64,000 nt of DNA, taken from Bacillota bacterium. Lineage in GTDB: Bacteria; Bacillota; Clostridia; Peptostreptococcales; Anaerovoracaceae. The notes under the pieces were generated by a model. It saw nothing but the letters and a program-made list of their open reading frames with translations. It was not told the origin of the DNA and did no database searches. Position numbers and translations under genes: made by a program. Within the stretch, counting starts at the first letter, position 1. Each line of letters opens with the position of its first letter. Below, in pieces: positions 7,311 to 29,157 of the stretch. The stretch covers positions 1 to 64,000 of the forward strand of contig JAFRXM010000061.1 of assembly GCA_017443515.1 (NCBI GenBank), written 5' to 3'.

Positions 7311-7322
7311 GAACATATGTTC
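7311..7322 (+). promoter_or_regulatory. LexA (SOS) box of recA
   Basis: GAACATATGTTC is a perfect palindrome matching the Gram-positive LexA consensus GAAC-N4-GTTC (CGAACRNRYGTTYC). It lies just downstream of the recA -10 and 16 bases before the start codon. Confidence 0.9.
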
Positions 7323-7338: not shown

Positions 7339-8418
7339 ATGGCAACTAACACTAACATTCCTAAATCAGACAAGGACAAAGCTCTGGAAGCGGCACTGCT
7401 GCAGATAGACAAGAAATTCGGCAAAGGCTCCATAATGATGCTCGGAGACGACAACGCAAGGCTGGATATAGAAGCAGTTTCAACAGGTTCCGTCAGCCTG
7501 GATATAGCATGCGGAATAGGTGGTCTTCCCAGAGGAAGGATCATAGAGATCTACGGTCCGGAATCTTCAGGTAAGACTACGCTTGCGCTGCACGTTATAG
7601 CAGAAGCTCAGAAATCCGGCGGAAGGGCAGCCTTCATAGATGCAGAGCACGCGCTGGATCCTGTCTACGCAAAAGCTCTCGGGGTAGATATTGATGAGCT
7701 GCTCGTCTCACAGCCCGATACCGGAGAAGACGCTCTGGAGATCTGCGAGATGCTGATCAGGAGCGGTGCGCTTTCCATAGTCGTAATAGATTCGGTAGCT
7801 GCTCTCGTCCCGAAGACAGAAATAGAAGGCGACATGGGAGATTCTCACGTAGGAGCCCAGGCAAGGCTCATGTCCCAGGCTTTAAGAAAGATCACAGGCG
7901 TGGCCAACAAGACCGGCACCATGGTCGTATTCATCAACCAGCTCCGCGAAAAGATAGGCGTCATGTTCGGCAACCCGGAAACCACCACAGGCGGAAGGGC
8001 ACTGAAGTTCTACTCGTCCGTGCGCCTGGATGTACGCCGCGTGGAATCCATAAAGCAGGGCGATGCAGTCATAGGCAACCGCACAAGGGTCAAAGTAGTC
8101 AAGAACAAGGTGGCACCTCCGTTCAAGATGACAGAATTCGACATCATGTACGGGAAAGGCATATCCCGCGCCGGAGATATTCTGGACTGCGCAGTAGAGG
8201 CCAAACTCATAGAGAAGTCCGGAGCGTGGTATTCCTACAAGGGCGAGCGAATAGGCCAGGGCAGGGAAAACGTCAAAAACTACCTGGAAGAACGCCCGCA
8301 GCTCATGGACGAACTGGAAGTCCTCATCAAGGACAAGTTCATCCCCAAAAAAGATGACACGCTCGTAGACGATTCCGAGGACATCAAAGTGGACGAAGAC
8401 GGCGTTATCATCGAATAA
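7339..8418 (+). CDS. recA: Recombinase RecA
   Basis: DNA-dependent ATPase that forms the strand-exchange filament in homologous recombination and triggers LexA self-cleavage. The 359 residues contain Walker A GPESSGKT (about 73-80), Walker [11 protein letters not shown], the L2-loop region after [19 protein letters not shown], and an acidic C-terminal tail ending in [17 protein letters not shown]. The start has ACGGAGG eight bases upstream. Transcribed from its own SOS-regulated promoter; a probable terminator overlaps the next promoter. No intein or interruption is seen. Confidence 0.98.
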
Positions 8419-23041: not shown

Positions 23042-23055
23042 CTCCAAAACCTCCT

Positions 23056-23067
23056 GAACATTTGTTC
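23056..23067. promoter_or_regulatory. LexA box 1 of yneA
   Basis: GAAC-ATTT-GTTC, lying between the -10 and the ribosome-binding site of yneA. Read on the minus strand with its flank it is CGAACAAATGTTC, a close match to the Gram-positive consensus. Confidence 0.9.
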
Positions 23068-23073
23068 GATTAG

Positions 23074-23102
23074 ATTATACAGAACAATTGTTCGCTTGTC
23101 AA
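23074..23102 (-). promoter_or_regulatory. Promoter of yneA
   Basis: On the minus strand TTGACA (23097-23102), a 17-base spacer and TATAAT (23074-23079): a full-consensus promoter, as expected for a gene held off by a strong repressor. Confidence 0.88.
23082..23093. promoter_or_regulatory. LexA box 2 of yneA (in the promoter spacer)
   Basis: GAAC-AATT-GTTC, a perfect palindrome lying wholly between the -35 and -10 of yneA. Confidence 0.9.
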
Positions 23103-23112
23103 GCACTATTTT

Positions 23113-23124
23113 GAACATTTGTTC
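23113..23124. promoter_or_regulatory. LexA box 3 of yneA (upstream of the -35)
   Basis: GAAC-ATTT-GTTC. Centre-to-centre distances of the three boxes are 26 and 31 bases. It could also act on a divergent transcript, but no gene is seen on that side. Confidence 0.88.
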
Positions 23125-23165: not shown

Positions 23166-23191
23166 CAGCTGTGCATAAATCTGCACAGCTG
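23166..23191 (-). terminator. Hairpin terminator after the ynbB-like gene
   Basis: CAGCTGTGCA (23166-23175), six-base loop, TGCACAGCTG (23182-23191): a perfect 10-bp stem 60 bases beyond the stop codon. The following minus-strand bases TTTGATTATTATAAG are T-rich but broken, so strength is uncertain. Confidence 0.55.
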
Positions 23192-23253: not shown

Positions 23254-24546
23254 TTACAGAAGCCCTGCGTCCTTCAGGGCCTGGAGGCTCTTGATCACGC
23301 CGAACTTGGAGTGCTCGTAAGTTATGCCGCCCTGGAAATACACGATATACGGTTCGCGCATAGGCCCATCCGCAGAAAGCTCTATCGAAGATCCCTGCAC
23401 GAAAGCCCCTGCCGCCATGATGATCTTGTCCCTGTACCCTGCCATGTCGCCGTACTCTGGAGTAACGAAGGAATCGACCGGAGCGGCCTGCTGCACGCCC
23501 TTGCAGAACGCTTCGACTTTCCCGGCGCTGCCCAGCACAACAGCTTCTATAATATCGGAACGCCTGTCGGTCGAATGCGGACAGGTCTTATATCCGAGGT
23601 TCTCGTAGACCCTAGCGCAGAGCTTGGCGCCTTTTACAGCGCCGTTGGTGACGCGCGGCGCAATGAACAGCCCCTGCATCATGGTCCTGGTCTGGCCGAA
23701 AGTAAGGCCGCATTCGCCGCCTATGCCCGGGCATGTCACGCGGTAATAGATCTTATCGATAAGGTCCTTGCGTCCCGCGATATATCCGCCGGAGAGCGCA
23801 AGGCCTCCGCCGGGGTTCTTTATAAGCGAACCCGCCATGATGTCAGCGCCCAGCGCTATGGGATCCTCGTAATCCGTAAATTCGCCGTAGCAGTTATCGA
23901 CCATAAGGATAATGTCAGGTTTTACGGACCTGCAGGCGTCTATCCATGCCTTTATGCGGTCCGTCGTGAACGCTCTTCTGAAGGAATAACCGGTTGAACG
24001 CTGAAGAGCCGCCATAGTGGTAGTCGGCTTTATCGCAGCTTTTACTGCTTCAAGATCTATCTCGCCGTCCTCAGTAAGCTCCACCTGGCTGTACTTTATG
24101 CCGTATTCCTGGAGATTTCCGGGCGAAAGATTGTCCTTATCCAGGCCGATCACTGTCTTCATCGTGTCGTAAGGCGTTCCGCTGCAGTAGATAAGCTCGT
24201 CTCCGGAGCGAAGAAGCCCCAGATACACGCTTGCCAGCGCGTGTGTTCCGTTTACGATCTGGGTCCTTACGATAGCAGCTTCCGCATTGAAAACACTGGC
24301 GTAGACGCGTTCTATCGCGGCGCGTCCCATGTCGTCGTAGCCGTAGCCTGTGGTCCAGCCGAAGTGCATGTCGCTGATCCGGTTCTCCTGAAAAGCCTTA
24401 AGCACCTTGTACTGGTTGTATTCCATTATTTCGTCCTGCGCTTTGAACTCATCCGCAAGCTCTGCTTCGGCCTTCTGCACCAGTTCGACGATATCTTCGT
24501 CTATTCTGAACTGTTGACGTAATAATTTTACGGTTTTATCATTCAT
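23254..24546 (-). CDS. ynbB: Methionine gamma-lyase-like / aluminium-resistance (YnbB) family PLP protein
   Basis: A 430-residue fold-type I PLP enzyme of the Met_gamma_lyase/YnbB family. Visible features are HFGWTTGYGYDD near the N-terminus, QIVNGTHALASVYLGLLRSGDEL, a cofactor-binding Asp region LMVDNCYGEF, and the probable PLP lysine in SLIKNPGGGLALSGGYI. Its true reaction is not settled; a cysteine/methionine C-S lyase role is inferred from fold. ATG at 24546 overlaps the recombinase stop by eight bases. Position next to the miaA/mutSL region is conserved in Clostridia. Confidence 0.88.
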   Translation of the reverse strand: MNDKTVKLLRQQFRIDEDIVELVQKAEAELADEFKAQDEIMEYNQYKVLKAFQENRISDMHFGWTTGYGYDDMGRAAIERVYASVFNAEAAIVRTQIVNGTHALASVYLGLLRSGDELIYCSGTPYDTMKTVIGLDKDNLSPGNLQEYGIKYSQVELTEDGEIDLEAVKAAIKPTTTMAALQRSTGYSFRRAFTTDRIKAWIDACRSVKPDIILMVDNCYGEFTDYEDPIALGADIMAGSLIKNPGGGLALSGGYIAGRKDLIDKIYYRVTCPGIGGECGLTFGQTRTMMQGLFIAPRVTNGAVKGAKLCARVYENLGYKTCPHSTDRRSDIIEAVVLGSAGKVEAFCKGVQQAAPVDSFVTPEYGDMAGYRDKIIMAAGAFVQGSSIELSADGPMREPYIVYFQGGITYEHSKFGVIKSLQALKDAGLL

Positions 24547-25678
24547 CTTTCTTAAGATCTTCTCCCCATTCAAAGTTTTTTATAAGCTCGCGCTTGGTGT
24601 TGAGCTTGTGCGCCGCGTAAAGCTGCGTTGTCGTGACGTTGTCGTGGTCCATAAGCTCCTGGACGTCGTATATGGAATTGCCGCGCCCTATGAGCGATGT
24701 GGCCGCCGTAGCCCTCAGCTTGTGCGGGCTGTAGCCGTTATCGCGCGTGGTACCCATGCTTATGGAAGTGTATTTCTTCACTATCTGCCGTATCTGCCTG
24801 TCCGTAAGGCGGCTGCCCTGAAGCGACAAAAGCAGCGCGTCGCGGCTTTCCTGCGGCAGATCCTCTTCCTTCGGCCGTTCTATGTTCACGTAGTCGTTCC
24901 ATGCCTCGGTGATTGTCCTGTTTATAGGCATAATGGACTCTTTTCCGCGCTTTCTGTAGATCTTGAACTCGCCGCGGTCGAAATTAAACGACGAGATGTT
25001 CAGCTGCTGCAGCTCCGAAAGCCTGAGGCCGTACGTTACCAGAAGCAGCAGTATCAACTTATCCCTAAGCTTCGTCTTTTCCCAGTAGCTCTTTTCATGT
25101 CCGGTAAGGCCTTCACCGGTCTGGACAGCGTCCAGCATCTTCATCACCTCGTCGTCCTGAAGAGCCTTTATCTCGCGTTCTCCGGGCTTGGGCATCCTTA
25201 TCGGATCAAAACCGTCGGTGATATTCTTTGAAACCAGACCGTCTCTGTACAGGTATTTGAACAACACCGAGACAGCCGACTTCTTGTGCGACAGCCTGCT
25301 GTTCTGGTTCTGATAGACGACATCATTGCCGTCCTTGTCCTTAACTTTATAGCGCCGGCAGTAGTCTATGTAGATGTTAACATCCACTGAAGTGATCTGG
25401 TCCAGATCGCCGGGAGTTATCTGACTGATGCTTTCGTATTTCTTTTCCGCGATCACCGATTCTTTTATCAAATAATTGAAAAAGAAGCGGATATCCCCCA
25501 GATACGAGAGCCTGGACATGGGCAGTATGCCGTTTTTCAGGTACATGAAAAACCCGCGCATCCACTTTGGAAGCTCGGATTCAATCCTTTCGCAGCGTTC
25601 CTGGATCTCGTTTTCGCGCTCTACGACATTGTCGGGTTTGTCGGATTTGTTGTGCAGTATTACCTTTTTTCCGCTCAT
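24539..25678 (-). CDS. Tyrosine recombinase (Xer-like)
   Basis: A 379-residue site-specific recombinase with an N-terminal SAM-like core-binding domain (about 30-160) and a catalytic domain with the full set: Arg in TYGLRLSELQQL, Lys in YRKRGKES, HxxR in SPHKLRATAATSL, His in LMDHDNVTTTQ and the nucleophile Tyr in TQLYAAH. Probably a housekeeping Xer-type enzyme rather than a phage integrase, because its neighbours are chromosomal and no att-like repeats are seen. A TGG-TATAAT promoter lies so close to the ATG that the mRNA is predicted leaderless; an in-frame TTG further up would overlap the -10 and is rejected. Confidence 0.88.
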   Translation of the reverse strand: MSGKKVILHNKSDKPDNVVERENEIQERCERIESELPKWMRGFFMYLKNGILPMSRLSYLGDIRFFFNYLIKESVIAEKKYESISQITPGDLDQITSVDVNIYIDYCRRYKVKDKDGNDVVYQNQNSRLSHKKSAVSVLFKYLYRDGLVSKNITDGFDPIRMPKPGEREIKALQDDEVMKMLDAVQTGEGLTGHEKSYWEKTKLRDKLILLLLVTYGLRLSELQQLNISSFNFDRGEFKIYRKRGKESIMPINRTITEAWNDYVNIERPKEEDLPQESRDALLLSLQGSRLTDRQIRQIVKKYTSISMGTTRDNGYSPHKLRATAATSLIGRGNSIYDVQELMDHDNVTTTQLYAAHKLNTKRELIKNFEWGEDLKKDE

Positions 25679-25684
25679 GACGGT

Positions 25685-25690
25685 ATTATA
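25685..25690 (-). promoter_or_regulatory. Extended -10 promoter of the tyrosine recombinase gene
   Basis: TATAAT preceded by TGG on the minus strand, with a weak -35 (TTGTTT at 16 bases). The start codon begins six bases after the -10, so transcription would begin at or within one base of the A of the ATG. Confidence 0.6.
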
Positions 25691-25714
25691 CCACAACTAT
25701 TCCGAAAAACAAAC

Positions 25715-26392: not shown

Positions 26393-27619
26393 TTATTCAT
26401 TCCTTCTTAAAAGCATTATCGGCGATTTACCAGCTGTCATAGCCAGTACTGTTACAAAAGCAATTATCAAGGTAAAAGCAAAATAAGCAAGCACCATCAG
26501 CCTTGCCGTATCTCCCAGCATCATAGAGCTGAATCTTATTCCAAGGAAGCCATCATCAAGCGCTGCATTTGTTCTTGAACTGTCTGCTATTCCTATTATG
26601 ATAAGGTTAATGATCGCCGGAATAAGTGAAACGACTGTTGTTGCAGCAAGTGTGAGCCTGATCGTCTGACTTTTACTGGCTCCGCAAAGATATGAAACTG
26701 CCAACTCATCTGACTTTTTCCTTACAAACAGGATCACCATGCTCAAATATGAAACTGTAGATGTCAGAAGCAGAAAAGCCGGACGCGGCAGCATGGTCTT
26801 CATGTTTTCCTTGATCTGAACTTCAGTGTTATTTGTTATCTCTTCCATGGATACCATCTGCCCGAATGGGGCAAAAGCTCTCTTTACTCCTGCAATATCA
26901 TCATTTGATGCAGATTTGTTAAAACTAATGATATAGTTGGGACTGCTTATCAATAACGAAACTTCTCTGAAATGCTCAAGATTCTTTTTTGTTGCAGGCA
27001 TAATTATTGCTGCATCCACGCTCTGAAACAGATCTTGTGCAAGGTGATCTGTACTTGTTCCGCTAAGTAATAGCTGTTTATATGCAGACCTTATATGTTT
27101 TATGACAGGAAAGGTTTCAGTGTGGATACCGGGCCTGTTGAATTTGAGCTCTATTTCATGTGACAGATCATCAAAGTACGGCCCGACGACAATGCAGCCT
27201 TCTTCATTCCCTTCAAAATCAAAACCTGTCTCCTTAAGTGCCGTAAAATCTTCTGTGATTTTTGGGTCCAACAGCAATATGCTGAAACCAGAATCGTGAT
27301 AGGAAACACTATTTGCTGTATATACACAGTATACATGATCCACTTCTGGCATTTTGGCAATTTCATCGACTTTTAGTGTCATTGCTGTTGGCTGTCCTTG
27401 CATAAGTTTTGAAAGATCTTCATCAGATACAAACGCTTCTGTATAATAAACATTACTCTCTGAAGACTTTACTATACGATAATCGTACATAATATATCTT
27501 ATGTATCCAATGTTTTGTATCCAAATAAACATTGCAAGTGTCATCAGAATGACCATGGCTGTAGTGTGAGGCCTTAATCTTTTGAAGAATTCATGAAGCG
27601 AATATAGAAACCTTCTCAT
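26393..27619 (-). CDS. FtsX/MacB-like ABC permease, subunit 2
   Basis: A 408-residue membrane protein: one membrane helix near the N-terminus (about 21-40), a large extracytoplasmic domain (about 45-285) and three C-terminal helices (about 290-310, 335-357, 380-400). This is the four-helix MacB topology. RKKSDELAVSYLCGASK near the second helix resembles the FtsX-family coupling segment. Sequence similarity to the neighbouring permease is low, so a heterodimer is likely. Ten bases follow the first permease gene. AT-rich compared with housekeeping genes nearby. Confidence 0.78.
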   Translation of the reverse strand: MRRFLYSLHEFFKRLRPHTTAMVILMTLAMFIWIQNIGYIRYIMYDYRIVKSSESNVYYTEAFVSDEDLSKLMQGQPTAMTLKVDEIAKMPEVDHVYCVYTANSVSYHDSGFSILLLDPKITEDFTALKETGFDFEGNEEGCIVVGPYFDDLSHEIELKFNRPGIHTETFPVIKHIRSAYKQLLLSGTSTDHLAQDLFQSVDAAIIMPATKKNLEHFREVSLLISSPNYIISFNKSASNDDIAGVKRAFAPFGQMVSMEEITNNTEVQIKENMKTMLPRPAFLLLTSTVSYLSMVILFVRKKSDELAVSYLCGASKSQTIRLTLAATTVVSLIPAIINLIIIGIADSSRTNAALDDGFLGIRFSSMMLGDTARLMVLAYFAFTLIIAFVTVLAMTAGKSPIMLLRRNE

Positions 27620-27629
27620 ATTTCCGGAT

Positions 27630-28706
27630 TCAATCCTTCCTTCCCCTTGCTTTTATAAATGATCTATTTGTAAAAGCGATTGTGAATAACAAAATGATAA
27701 TAATACTAAGCATCAATACAATAATGAAAATGCTTAGATAATCTGTTATGTTATATTGAATTCCTTCTATCACATTTAGTTTTGAGAAAAGTACAGGTGT
27801 CAGTATTTTGTGCAAAATGATCCCGACTGCTGTTCCTGCAGATGTGAGCAGAATTCCCTCTAAAAACACCATTGCGGAAATAGTGTTTCTTTTTGCTCCA
27901 ACTATACGGCTGACAGCATTTTCTTTTTGCCCGGAATCAAGAAGAAACCTGAAAAGAAATAAGAACGAAACACTGCTTATTGTAAAACTGATTATTATCT
28001 GCATACTTGCAAAGAACGTATCAGATCTGTCAAATGCATCCCCTATTGGGCGTTCAAAATGCTGATCCGGTATTATCGCTTCAAATGCTCGTATGACGGC
28101 ATCATCATTTTCTATATATCTTTCCTTTGAGACTGCAGTAACAAAATACGGGCAGTCATTTTTATGGTTATCCCTTATTTCTTCAAAAGCGCTTTTAGAT
28201 ATAAAGAATTCAGTTGAACCATGTATCCCGATCACACTGAATTCTTTTCCATCTATATTTATTTTGTCATCTACTGAATAATCGAAACCGATTTTAGGGA
28301 CAATTATCTCTTTATCTACTACTGACCTGTTTTCACCATTCAGGATCACTAAGGGATAATCCCCGTAATATACGGTGCTTAATGCATAACCTCTATTCTC
28401 CGGTAAATACAAACCTTGTAATAGGCTTTCAAAAAGGTCTGTATCTATAAGTGAATTCAATACTTCCTTATCTTCTTTTGAGCTTTCGGCGTTAGGATCA
28501 AAACTAAACTGGTATTCTCTATACATATGGATGTTAGAGGAATTTCTTCTGGATATTGAAGGTATAAAATTACCGTAAAGGTAACAAACCATTACGGAAT
28601 TAATGATCGCACCAATAACAAACAGGATAAATATCCATTTATCCTGTTTGCAGTACTGTTTAAGACGCTGTAGAACTAAAAATACTGTTTTCATTATTCT
28701 TTGCAT
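27630..28706 (-). CDS. FtsX/MacB-like ABC permease, subunit 1
   Basis: A 358-residue membrane protein with an N-terminal helix (about 24-45), an extracytoplasmic domain and three C-terminal helices starting about residues 235, 275 and 320. SGQKENAVSRIVGAKRNTISAMVFLEG is the typical FtsX-family loop between helices. GENRSVVDKEIIVP and IGIHGSTEFFISKSAFEEI recall the MacB periplasmic core domain. The first ATG follows the secreted-protein stop by seven bases without a clear ribosome-binding site; a second ATG at 28694 is possible. Translation is likely coupled. Confidence 0.78.
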   Translation of the reverse strand: MQRIMKTVFLVLQRLKQYCKQDKWIFILFVIGAIINSVMVCYLYGNFIPSISRRNSSNIHMYREYQFSFDPNAESSKEDKEVLNSLIDTDLFESLLQGLYLPENRGYALSTVYYGDYPLVILNGENRSVVDKEIIVPKIGFDYSVDDKINIDGKEFSVIGIHGSTEFFISKSAFEEIRDNHKNDCPYFVTAVSKERYIENDDAVIRAFEAIIPDQHFERPIGDAFDRSDTFFASMQIIISFTISSVSFLFLFRFLLDSGQKENAVSRIVGAKRNTISAMVFLEGILLTSAGTAVGIILHKILTPVLFSKLNVIEGIQYNITDYLSIFIIVLMLSIIIILLFTIAFTNRSFIKARGRKD

Positions 28707-28713
28707 CTATTTT

Positions 28714-29157
28714 TTAGTAATAGTGACATAACCAATAGTCAGTATTTGAAGTGCCATTACTATAATTAACTGTTCTTGAGCCTGAATGTTCAACATACTC
28801 AGCATAATAACAGCCGGAAACTGATATATCACCGGTTCTTATAGCTCCGGAAACGATCGAATAACTTGTATATTGAGCGATCGAACCGTTTATGCCCTTT
28901 ATATAAACCTTAGCGTAACCCGTATTGTCAGATGCTACAGACAGATTCGTGTTAGCTGATGCTTTGTTATTTAGAATAAAACCAACATAGTATCTGCCAG
29001 TTAATGGTCCGGTAGAACTATTAGGATATGCAAACATATATCCGGTACTCATATCAACATCATAATAATTGACAGAATTTGTTGCTGCAAATGCAATTGA
29101 TGACATGGATATGATCAGACATAGTACAAGAATAATTGCTATTATTGACTTTTTCAT
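28714..29157 (-). CDS. Small secreted Tyr-rich protein of unknown family
   Basis: A 147-residue precursor with a classic signal peptide (MKKSIIAIILVLCLII through AFA, predicted cleavage about residue 24). The mature part of about 123 residues is rich in Tyr (about 17), Ser, Asn, Thr and Gly, looks beta-rich, has two cysteines (SGCYYAE and WLCHYY) that could pair, and ends DYWLCHYY. AAGGAGG precedes the ATG. It sits between a LysR gene and two permease genes plus an ATPase. The layout recalls lactococcin 972-type loci (secreted beta-sandwich bacteriocin with aromatic C-terminus plus membrane protein plus ATPase), but I see no convincing sequence match. Confidence 0.7.
   Translation of the reverse strand: MKKSIIAIILVLCLIISMSSIAFAATNSVNYYDVDMSTGYMFAYPNSSTGPLTGRYYVGFILNNKASANTNLSVASDNTGYAKVYIKGINGSIAQYTSYSIVSGAIRTGDISVSGCYYAEYVEHSGSRTVNYSNGTSNTDYWLCHYY

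Follow-up and report, generated by a model that had tools for sequence, protein, structure and literature searches.

A putatively LexA-repressed yneA promoter with three operators, and the separation of yneA from lexA in the Anaerovoracaceae

The yneA promoter described here is very probably an SOS promoter repressed by LexA, which follows a general three-operator design and whose former neighbour, lexA, has probably moved elsewhere. A pattern search of the window, by which we mean the whole 64-kb stretch of DNA analyzed, located exact copies of GAACNNNNGTTC at three places around this promoter (Table 1), in agreement with an earlier note on this DNA that had reported GAAC-N4-GTTC before the -35, within the spacer and after the -10. 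The promoter itself lies on the minus strand and reads TTGACA-N17-TATAAT, with 12 of 12 consensus matches, as that note had also seen. Read 5' to 3' on this strand, the order of elements is box, -35, spacer box, -10, box, AGGAGG and the ATG (23041). The spacer is composed of 3+12+2 nt, the middle 12 being LexA box 2, and boxes 1 and 3 are identical 12-mers. If transcription starts where we infer it, box 3 would span roughly positions +1 to +12.

Table 1. Features of the yneA locus and the LexA box of recA, in window coordinates
Feature	Position	Strand	Sequence	Basis
LexA box 1, upstream of -35	23113..23124		GAACAAATGTTC (minus-strand reading)	exact match
-35 hexamer	23097..23102	minus	TTGACA	consensus match
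LexA box 2, within 17-nt spacer	23082..23093		GAACAATTGTTC (minus-strand reading)	exact match
-10 hexamer	23074..23079	minus	TATAAT	consensus match
LexA box 3, past -10	23056..23067		GAACAAATGTTC (minus-strand reading)	exact match
Ribosome-binding site	23050..23055	minus	AGGAGG	sequence
yneA, 98 aa	22745..23041	minus		LysM and NF010723
Terminator-like hairpin between ynbB and yneA boxes	23166..23191	minus		10 pairs, T-rich tail
ynbB	23254..24573	minus		Pfam match (Met_gamma_lyase PF06838)
LexA box of recA (same regulon)	7311..7322			exact match

The identification of the gene as yneA, likewise proposed in the earlier note, is supported by a score of 67.4 bits against NF010723, which passes the curated cut-off of 60. 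The protein carries a C-terminal LysM domain (PF01476, residues 48-96, E 4e-10) and one N-terminal hydrophobic segment, read from its sequence. Upstream, the nearest gene is ynbB, which is oriented like yneA and ends about 130 bp from the yneA promoter region; no divergent gene is found at the locus. The earlier description of an empty divergent side is thus correct with respect to the lack of a divergent gene, and its wording needs to be amended to include the co-oriented ynbB. A hairpin scan returned two matches, compared with 0.7 expected, which are the two strands of the single hairpin listed in Table 1. Further upstream on the minus strand are a solitary XerS-like tyrosine recombinase (24539-25696), in a frame overlapping the start of ynbB, and ORFs that by eye resemble ABC-type permeases (26393-29157). 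Beside the latter is an orphan of 147 aa that looks secreted and matches no Pfam family.

The window contains five copies of the palindrome, compared with 0.89 expected, and none of 100 shuffles reaches five. Genome-wide the palindrome is not enriched (31 sites, against 77 for a backward-read control), and on these numbers the genome-wide count was rejected as evidence for a regulon; 25 of the 31 sites were inspected, and many of those lie inside ORFs. At the observed site density, approximately 1e-5 clusters of three within 69 bp are expected in the whole genome. The improbable feature is the clustering of the boxes, not their number.

The genome comprises 1.94 Mb in 73 contigs and is 91% complete. 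One LexA DNA-binding domain is found in it, at C65:136473, in a protein that scores 210 bits against TIGR00498. This places lexA on contig C65 and yneA on contig C36, and bears out the earlier statement that lexA does not stand beside yneA. At its present place lexA neighbours a gene that by eye resembles polysaccharide-biosynthesis genes, and its upstream region carries GAACATACGTTT and AAACTTTTGTTC, both one-mismatch boxes. The LexA operator of the Bacillus type, a GAAC-N4-GTTC palindrome, is present at SOS genes of this genome: exact boxes precede recA (7339-8418, plus strand, identified by TIGR02012), a PcrA-like helicase (L004) and a RarA-like AAA ATPase (L006:3370, contig C12). Because the motif occurs at these genes and, with one mismatch, at lexA, we read it, on sequence grounds, as the operator of this genome's own LexA. 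The exactness of the boxes and the recurrence of the motif at recA and other SOS genes speak for the SOS-type promoter that the earlier note had proposed. Two further boxes lie at other kinds of genes. A 90-aa orphan ORF (L003:4704-5005, contig C51), with no Pfam or NCBIfam matches, has an exact LexA box just before a TATAAT and is a candidate SOS gene, and in L008:3333-4076 (contig C71), whose product joins an XRE helix-turn-helix to a Uma2 nuclease domain, a LexA box lies shortly past a TATAAT.

To place the layout in a wider context, yneA promoters were compared within and outside the family, scoring boxes with at most one mismatch. The family is taken to be the Anaerovoracaceae, class Clostridia, for which NCBI gives Eubacteriales Family XIII as another name. 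The family set comprises 90 loci drawn from 155 genomes, namely the 30 best matches and 60 others chosen across most further genera with a listed match, and includes the window's own locus together with extra members of its genus and of some others. The lexA-linked (coupled) set comprises 91 loci, pooled from samples of the phylum, class and order plus one further locus (L339), and four loci (L312 counted once) make up a set of other detached yneA genes. In the family, the spacer box is present in 80 of 90 promoters and all three boxes are in register in 69 (82 and 70, respectively, under slightly different limits), while shuffled upstream regions average 0.085 such sites each. The spacer is exactly 17 nt long in 76 of 82 promoters, and in 68 of 70 triples a distance of 28-33 bp separates the upstream box from the one in the spacer. 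Coupled loci show the spacer box in 85 of 91 cases and all three boxes in 64; one of them, L339, has three exact yneA boxes plus a lexA-proximal one. The arrangement of box, promoter with spacer box, and box is thus, on the comparison of these sequences, a general design of Bacillota yneA promoters and not peculiar to this locus. Since triples are found both with and without a neighbouring lexA, the layout is not a response to the split, and the triple box was rejected as a mark of detached yneA genes. This is consistent with the literature in that PMC8457756 describes three sites upstream of lexA in Clostridium thermocellum and Bacillus subtilis, and remarks that the divergent lexA/yneA pair 'may be a common theme'. 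Three boxes are not obligatory for yneA in the family: 21 of the 90 promoters are without one of them, and L144, from the window's own genus, has no box at yneA. Among the 80 spacer boxes of the family, 41 read GAACn4ATTC, which is not one of the six commonest forms in coupled loci.

Exact triples are much rarer than the layout. They occur in 10 of 197 Anaerovoracaceae genomes (3 of 197 for the backward control), in all ten before a yneA-like gene, and in 4 of 398 genomes of the phylum sample. That an exact triple is specific to yneA accordingly holds within the family and was rejected beyond it, as two of the four phylum genomes, G211 and G427, have the triple elsewhere. G427 contains a tandem array of GAACN4GTTC away from yneA, and G211, from another Bacillota family, has four exact boxes spread over roughly 100 bp, close to a large ORF that by eye resembles a phage portal protein (L340/L342).

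The linkage of lexA and yneA was followed through the same samples. The phylum sample consists of 398 genomes, 62 of them over the YneA cut-off and 60 of these outside the Anaerovoracaceae; the phylum loci are these 60, out of 262 genomes with any match at 1e-8, with weaker matches left out. All 60 contain lexA, and in 57 it is divergent from and adjacent to yneA, at 108-684 bp. The three exceptions are two contig ends and G501, in which a LysM gene stands apart from lexA and a second match lies beside it. The generalization of the earlier note that yneA is divergent from lexA in most Bacillota therefore holds for genomes with a clear yneA, and the present locus departs from it. Outside the family, 24 of 26 loci in the class sample are coupled, as are 12 of 16 in the order sample, the rest of which belong to families f195 and f142, one of them without upstream DNA. 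Within the family, none of the 90 fetched stretches contains lexA, at least six of them ending early at contig ends, where absence is less certain. The yneA profile matches 155 of 197 family genomes (100 of the 108 good ones) and lexA matches 177 (all 108 good ones); among the matches listed, nine genomes have both on one contig, by eye 149-562 kb apart. In the loci read, lexA and yneA are separated throughout the family. The gene order ynbB(+) lexA(-) yneA(+) is seen in named relatives, among them Alkalithermobacter paradoxus (L167) and a Tissierellia MAG (L164). Of the 90 family loci, 58 have ynbB or a VTT-domain gene in the fetched upstream region, and 45 have ynbB itself, which suggests that yneA often stayed near its old neighbour and that lexA left. 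Clustering of ORFs around 31 lexA loci named no common new site for lexA; the clusters with most members seem to consist of lexA and of its alternative reading frames.

The form of the operators also differs between the two groups. The upstream yneA box reads AAACn4GTTC in 65 of 67 coupled loci compared with 5 of 71 in the family, and is exact in 2 of 67 compared with 23 of 71, although it should be noted that the Fisher P values for these counts take no account of shared ancestry and that a single separation may underlie them. Seen from the lexA side, the coupled form becomes GAACn4GTTT, and 73 of 81 coupled loci have a lexA-proximal box of this form. Of 31 family genomes, 30 carry the same GAACn4GTTT ahead of lexA, as do all four others (three from detached families of the order and one, f182, from elsewhere in the class). 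The rarity of AAACn4GTTC in the family relative to coupled loci suggests that the family's upstream box serves as a third operator dedicated to yneA. In a quick LexA tree with a midpoint root, the LexAs of the family and of f195 form one branch (33 rows, SH-aLRT 100) within a 46-row group that includes the order's LexAs (SH-aLRT 91). With this position among the LexAs of the order, the family's lexA appears to be vertically inherited, which favours relocation over replacement from a distant source. In f142, where the two genes are likewise apart, LexA falls on a long branch at another place within the order, and lexA and yneA may therefore have parted more than once. Open-licence full text yielded no description of the change of upstream-box form, no on-topic paper on LexA in Anaerovoracaceae and no mitomycin time course of yneA with LexA.

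Together, these observations are consistent with the following model. In the undamaged cell, LexA dimers bound to the three palindromes would occupy both sides of the -35, the spacer and the start site, so that polymerase is excluded. Upon DNA damage, RecA would trigger LexA self-cleavage and free the yneA promoter, and the membrane-anchored LysM protein YneA would then delay septation, as is known for B. subtilis, in which YneA acts on FtsW and blocks septal peptidoglycan synthesis (PMC13396833). Tight repression of yneA, which the earlier note had predicted together with late SOS induction, is likely, and may fairly be presumed because its three exact boxes lie at the strong end. The number of exact boxes here is three at yneA and one at recA, whereas lexA has one-mismatch boxes only; by extrapolation from the operator logic of E. 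coli, for which PMC9578287 relates stronger boxes to later release, lexA and recA would be expected to be induced before yneA. In the ancestor, lexA would have been divergent from yneA and placed between ynbB and yneA, with the upstream box common to both genes. On the line of descent of the Anaerovoracaceae (Clostridiales Family XIII), together with one or more sister families, lexA would have moved along with its own GAACn4GTTT operator, and yneA would have kept its full set of three boxes.

A further proposal, to which we give an even chance of being right, is that the split was followed by a reshaping of the operators, and that selection maintains three operators for the sake of the division checkpoint rather than as a by-product of the divergent pair. 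In the shared stage, autoregulation of lexA would hold the upstream box in the weak, oriented form AAACn4GTTC; after lexA had left with a box of the same form, the yneA copy would have lost this form and often become a full palindrome, as at the present locus.

Other explanations have to be weighed against this model. The identity of boxes 1 and 3, and the small number of genomes with an exact triple in family and phylum, might suggest that the triple arose in this strain by accident or by recent tandem duplication of a single operator. However, with one mismatch allowed per box, 69 of 90 family promoters from many genera and 64 of 91 coupled ones have boxes at these three positions, the flanks of the boxes differ between genera, and the conserved spacing largely refutes this reading, which we consider extremely improbable. 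Binding by another regulator, for instance a prophage or stress repressor, is scarcely credible either: the palindrome precedes recA, the PcrA-like helicase and the rarA-like gene and has its one-mismatch form at lexA, even though clusters of GAACN4GTTC occur away from yneA in G427 and, near the portal-like ORF, in G211.

It is also conceivable that lexA did not move, but was lost and a foreign lexA acquired elsewhere, as its different place and different neighbour would allow. The single branch that family and f195 LexAs form among those of the order, and the retention of the same GAACn4GTTT box, make this unlikely. Box 1, finally, could be an idle leftover of the old lexA promoter; its counterpart in coupled relatives is indeed lexA-proximal (AAACn4GTTC in 65 of 67). 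A relic should decay and not sharpen, but the box is exact far more often in the family than in coupled loci, rarely retains AAACn4GTTC, and keeps its 28-33 bp spacing to the spacer box in nearly all family triples, and we regard this explanation as doubtful while according it some weight. Repression by LexA from three operators, with a relocated lexA, remains the preferred reading.

Comparable arrangements are known from other bacteria. In E. coli, sulA is a division inhibitor under LexA, and recN and the colicin genes have several SOS operators for tight control; these systems share LexA control and multiple operators with the present locus and differ in the LexA motif and the protein. In staphylococci, sosA is adjacent to lexA. 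The staphylococcal lexA-sosA system encodes an SOS-induced cell division inhibitor (PMC6851548) and is similar in this respect, whereas its inhibitor is other than YneA. A close likeness is also seen to the lexA-yneA locus of B. subtilis and C. thermocellum, with a LysM yneA and LexA boxes tiling the intergenic region, three of them upstream of lexA in both organisms according to PMC8457756; there the boxes are shared by a divergent pair, whereas the present yneA has no such partner and its lexA lies at a distance. The triple box at lexA/yneA is hence already known from these species, and its novelty is below that claimed in the earlier note; that of the family-wide split with its changed operator form is somewhat larger.

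In the usual divergent lexA-yneA pair it is hard to assign boxes to either gene. The split family, in which yneA mostly has three boxes and lexA one weak box, separates the demands of the two genes in a way that can be tested by promoter comparison. If the proposed reshaping of operators is true, the family would constitute a natural experiment on the operators needed by a division checkpoint. In the Anaerovoracaceae, the division block would no longer be tied in cis to the lexA promoter.
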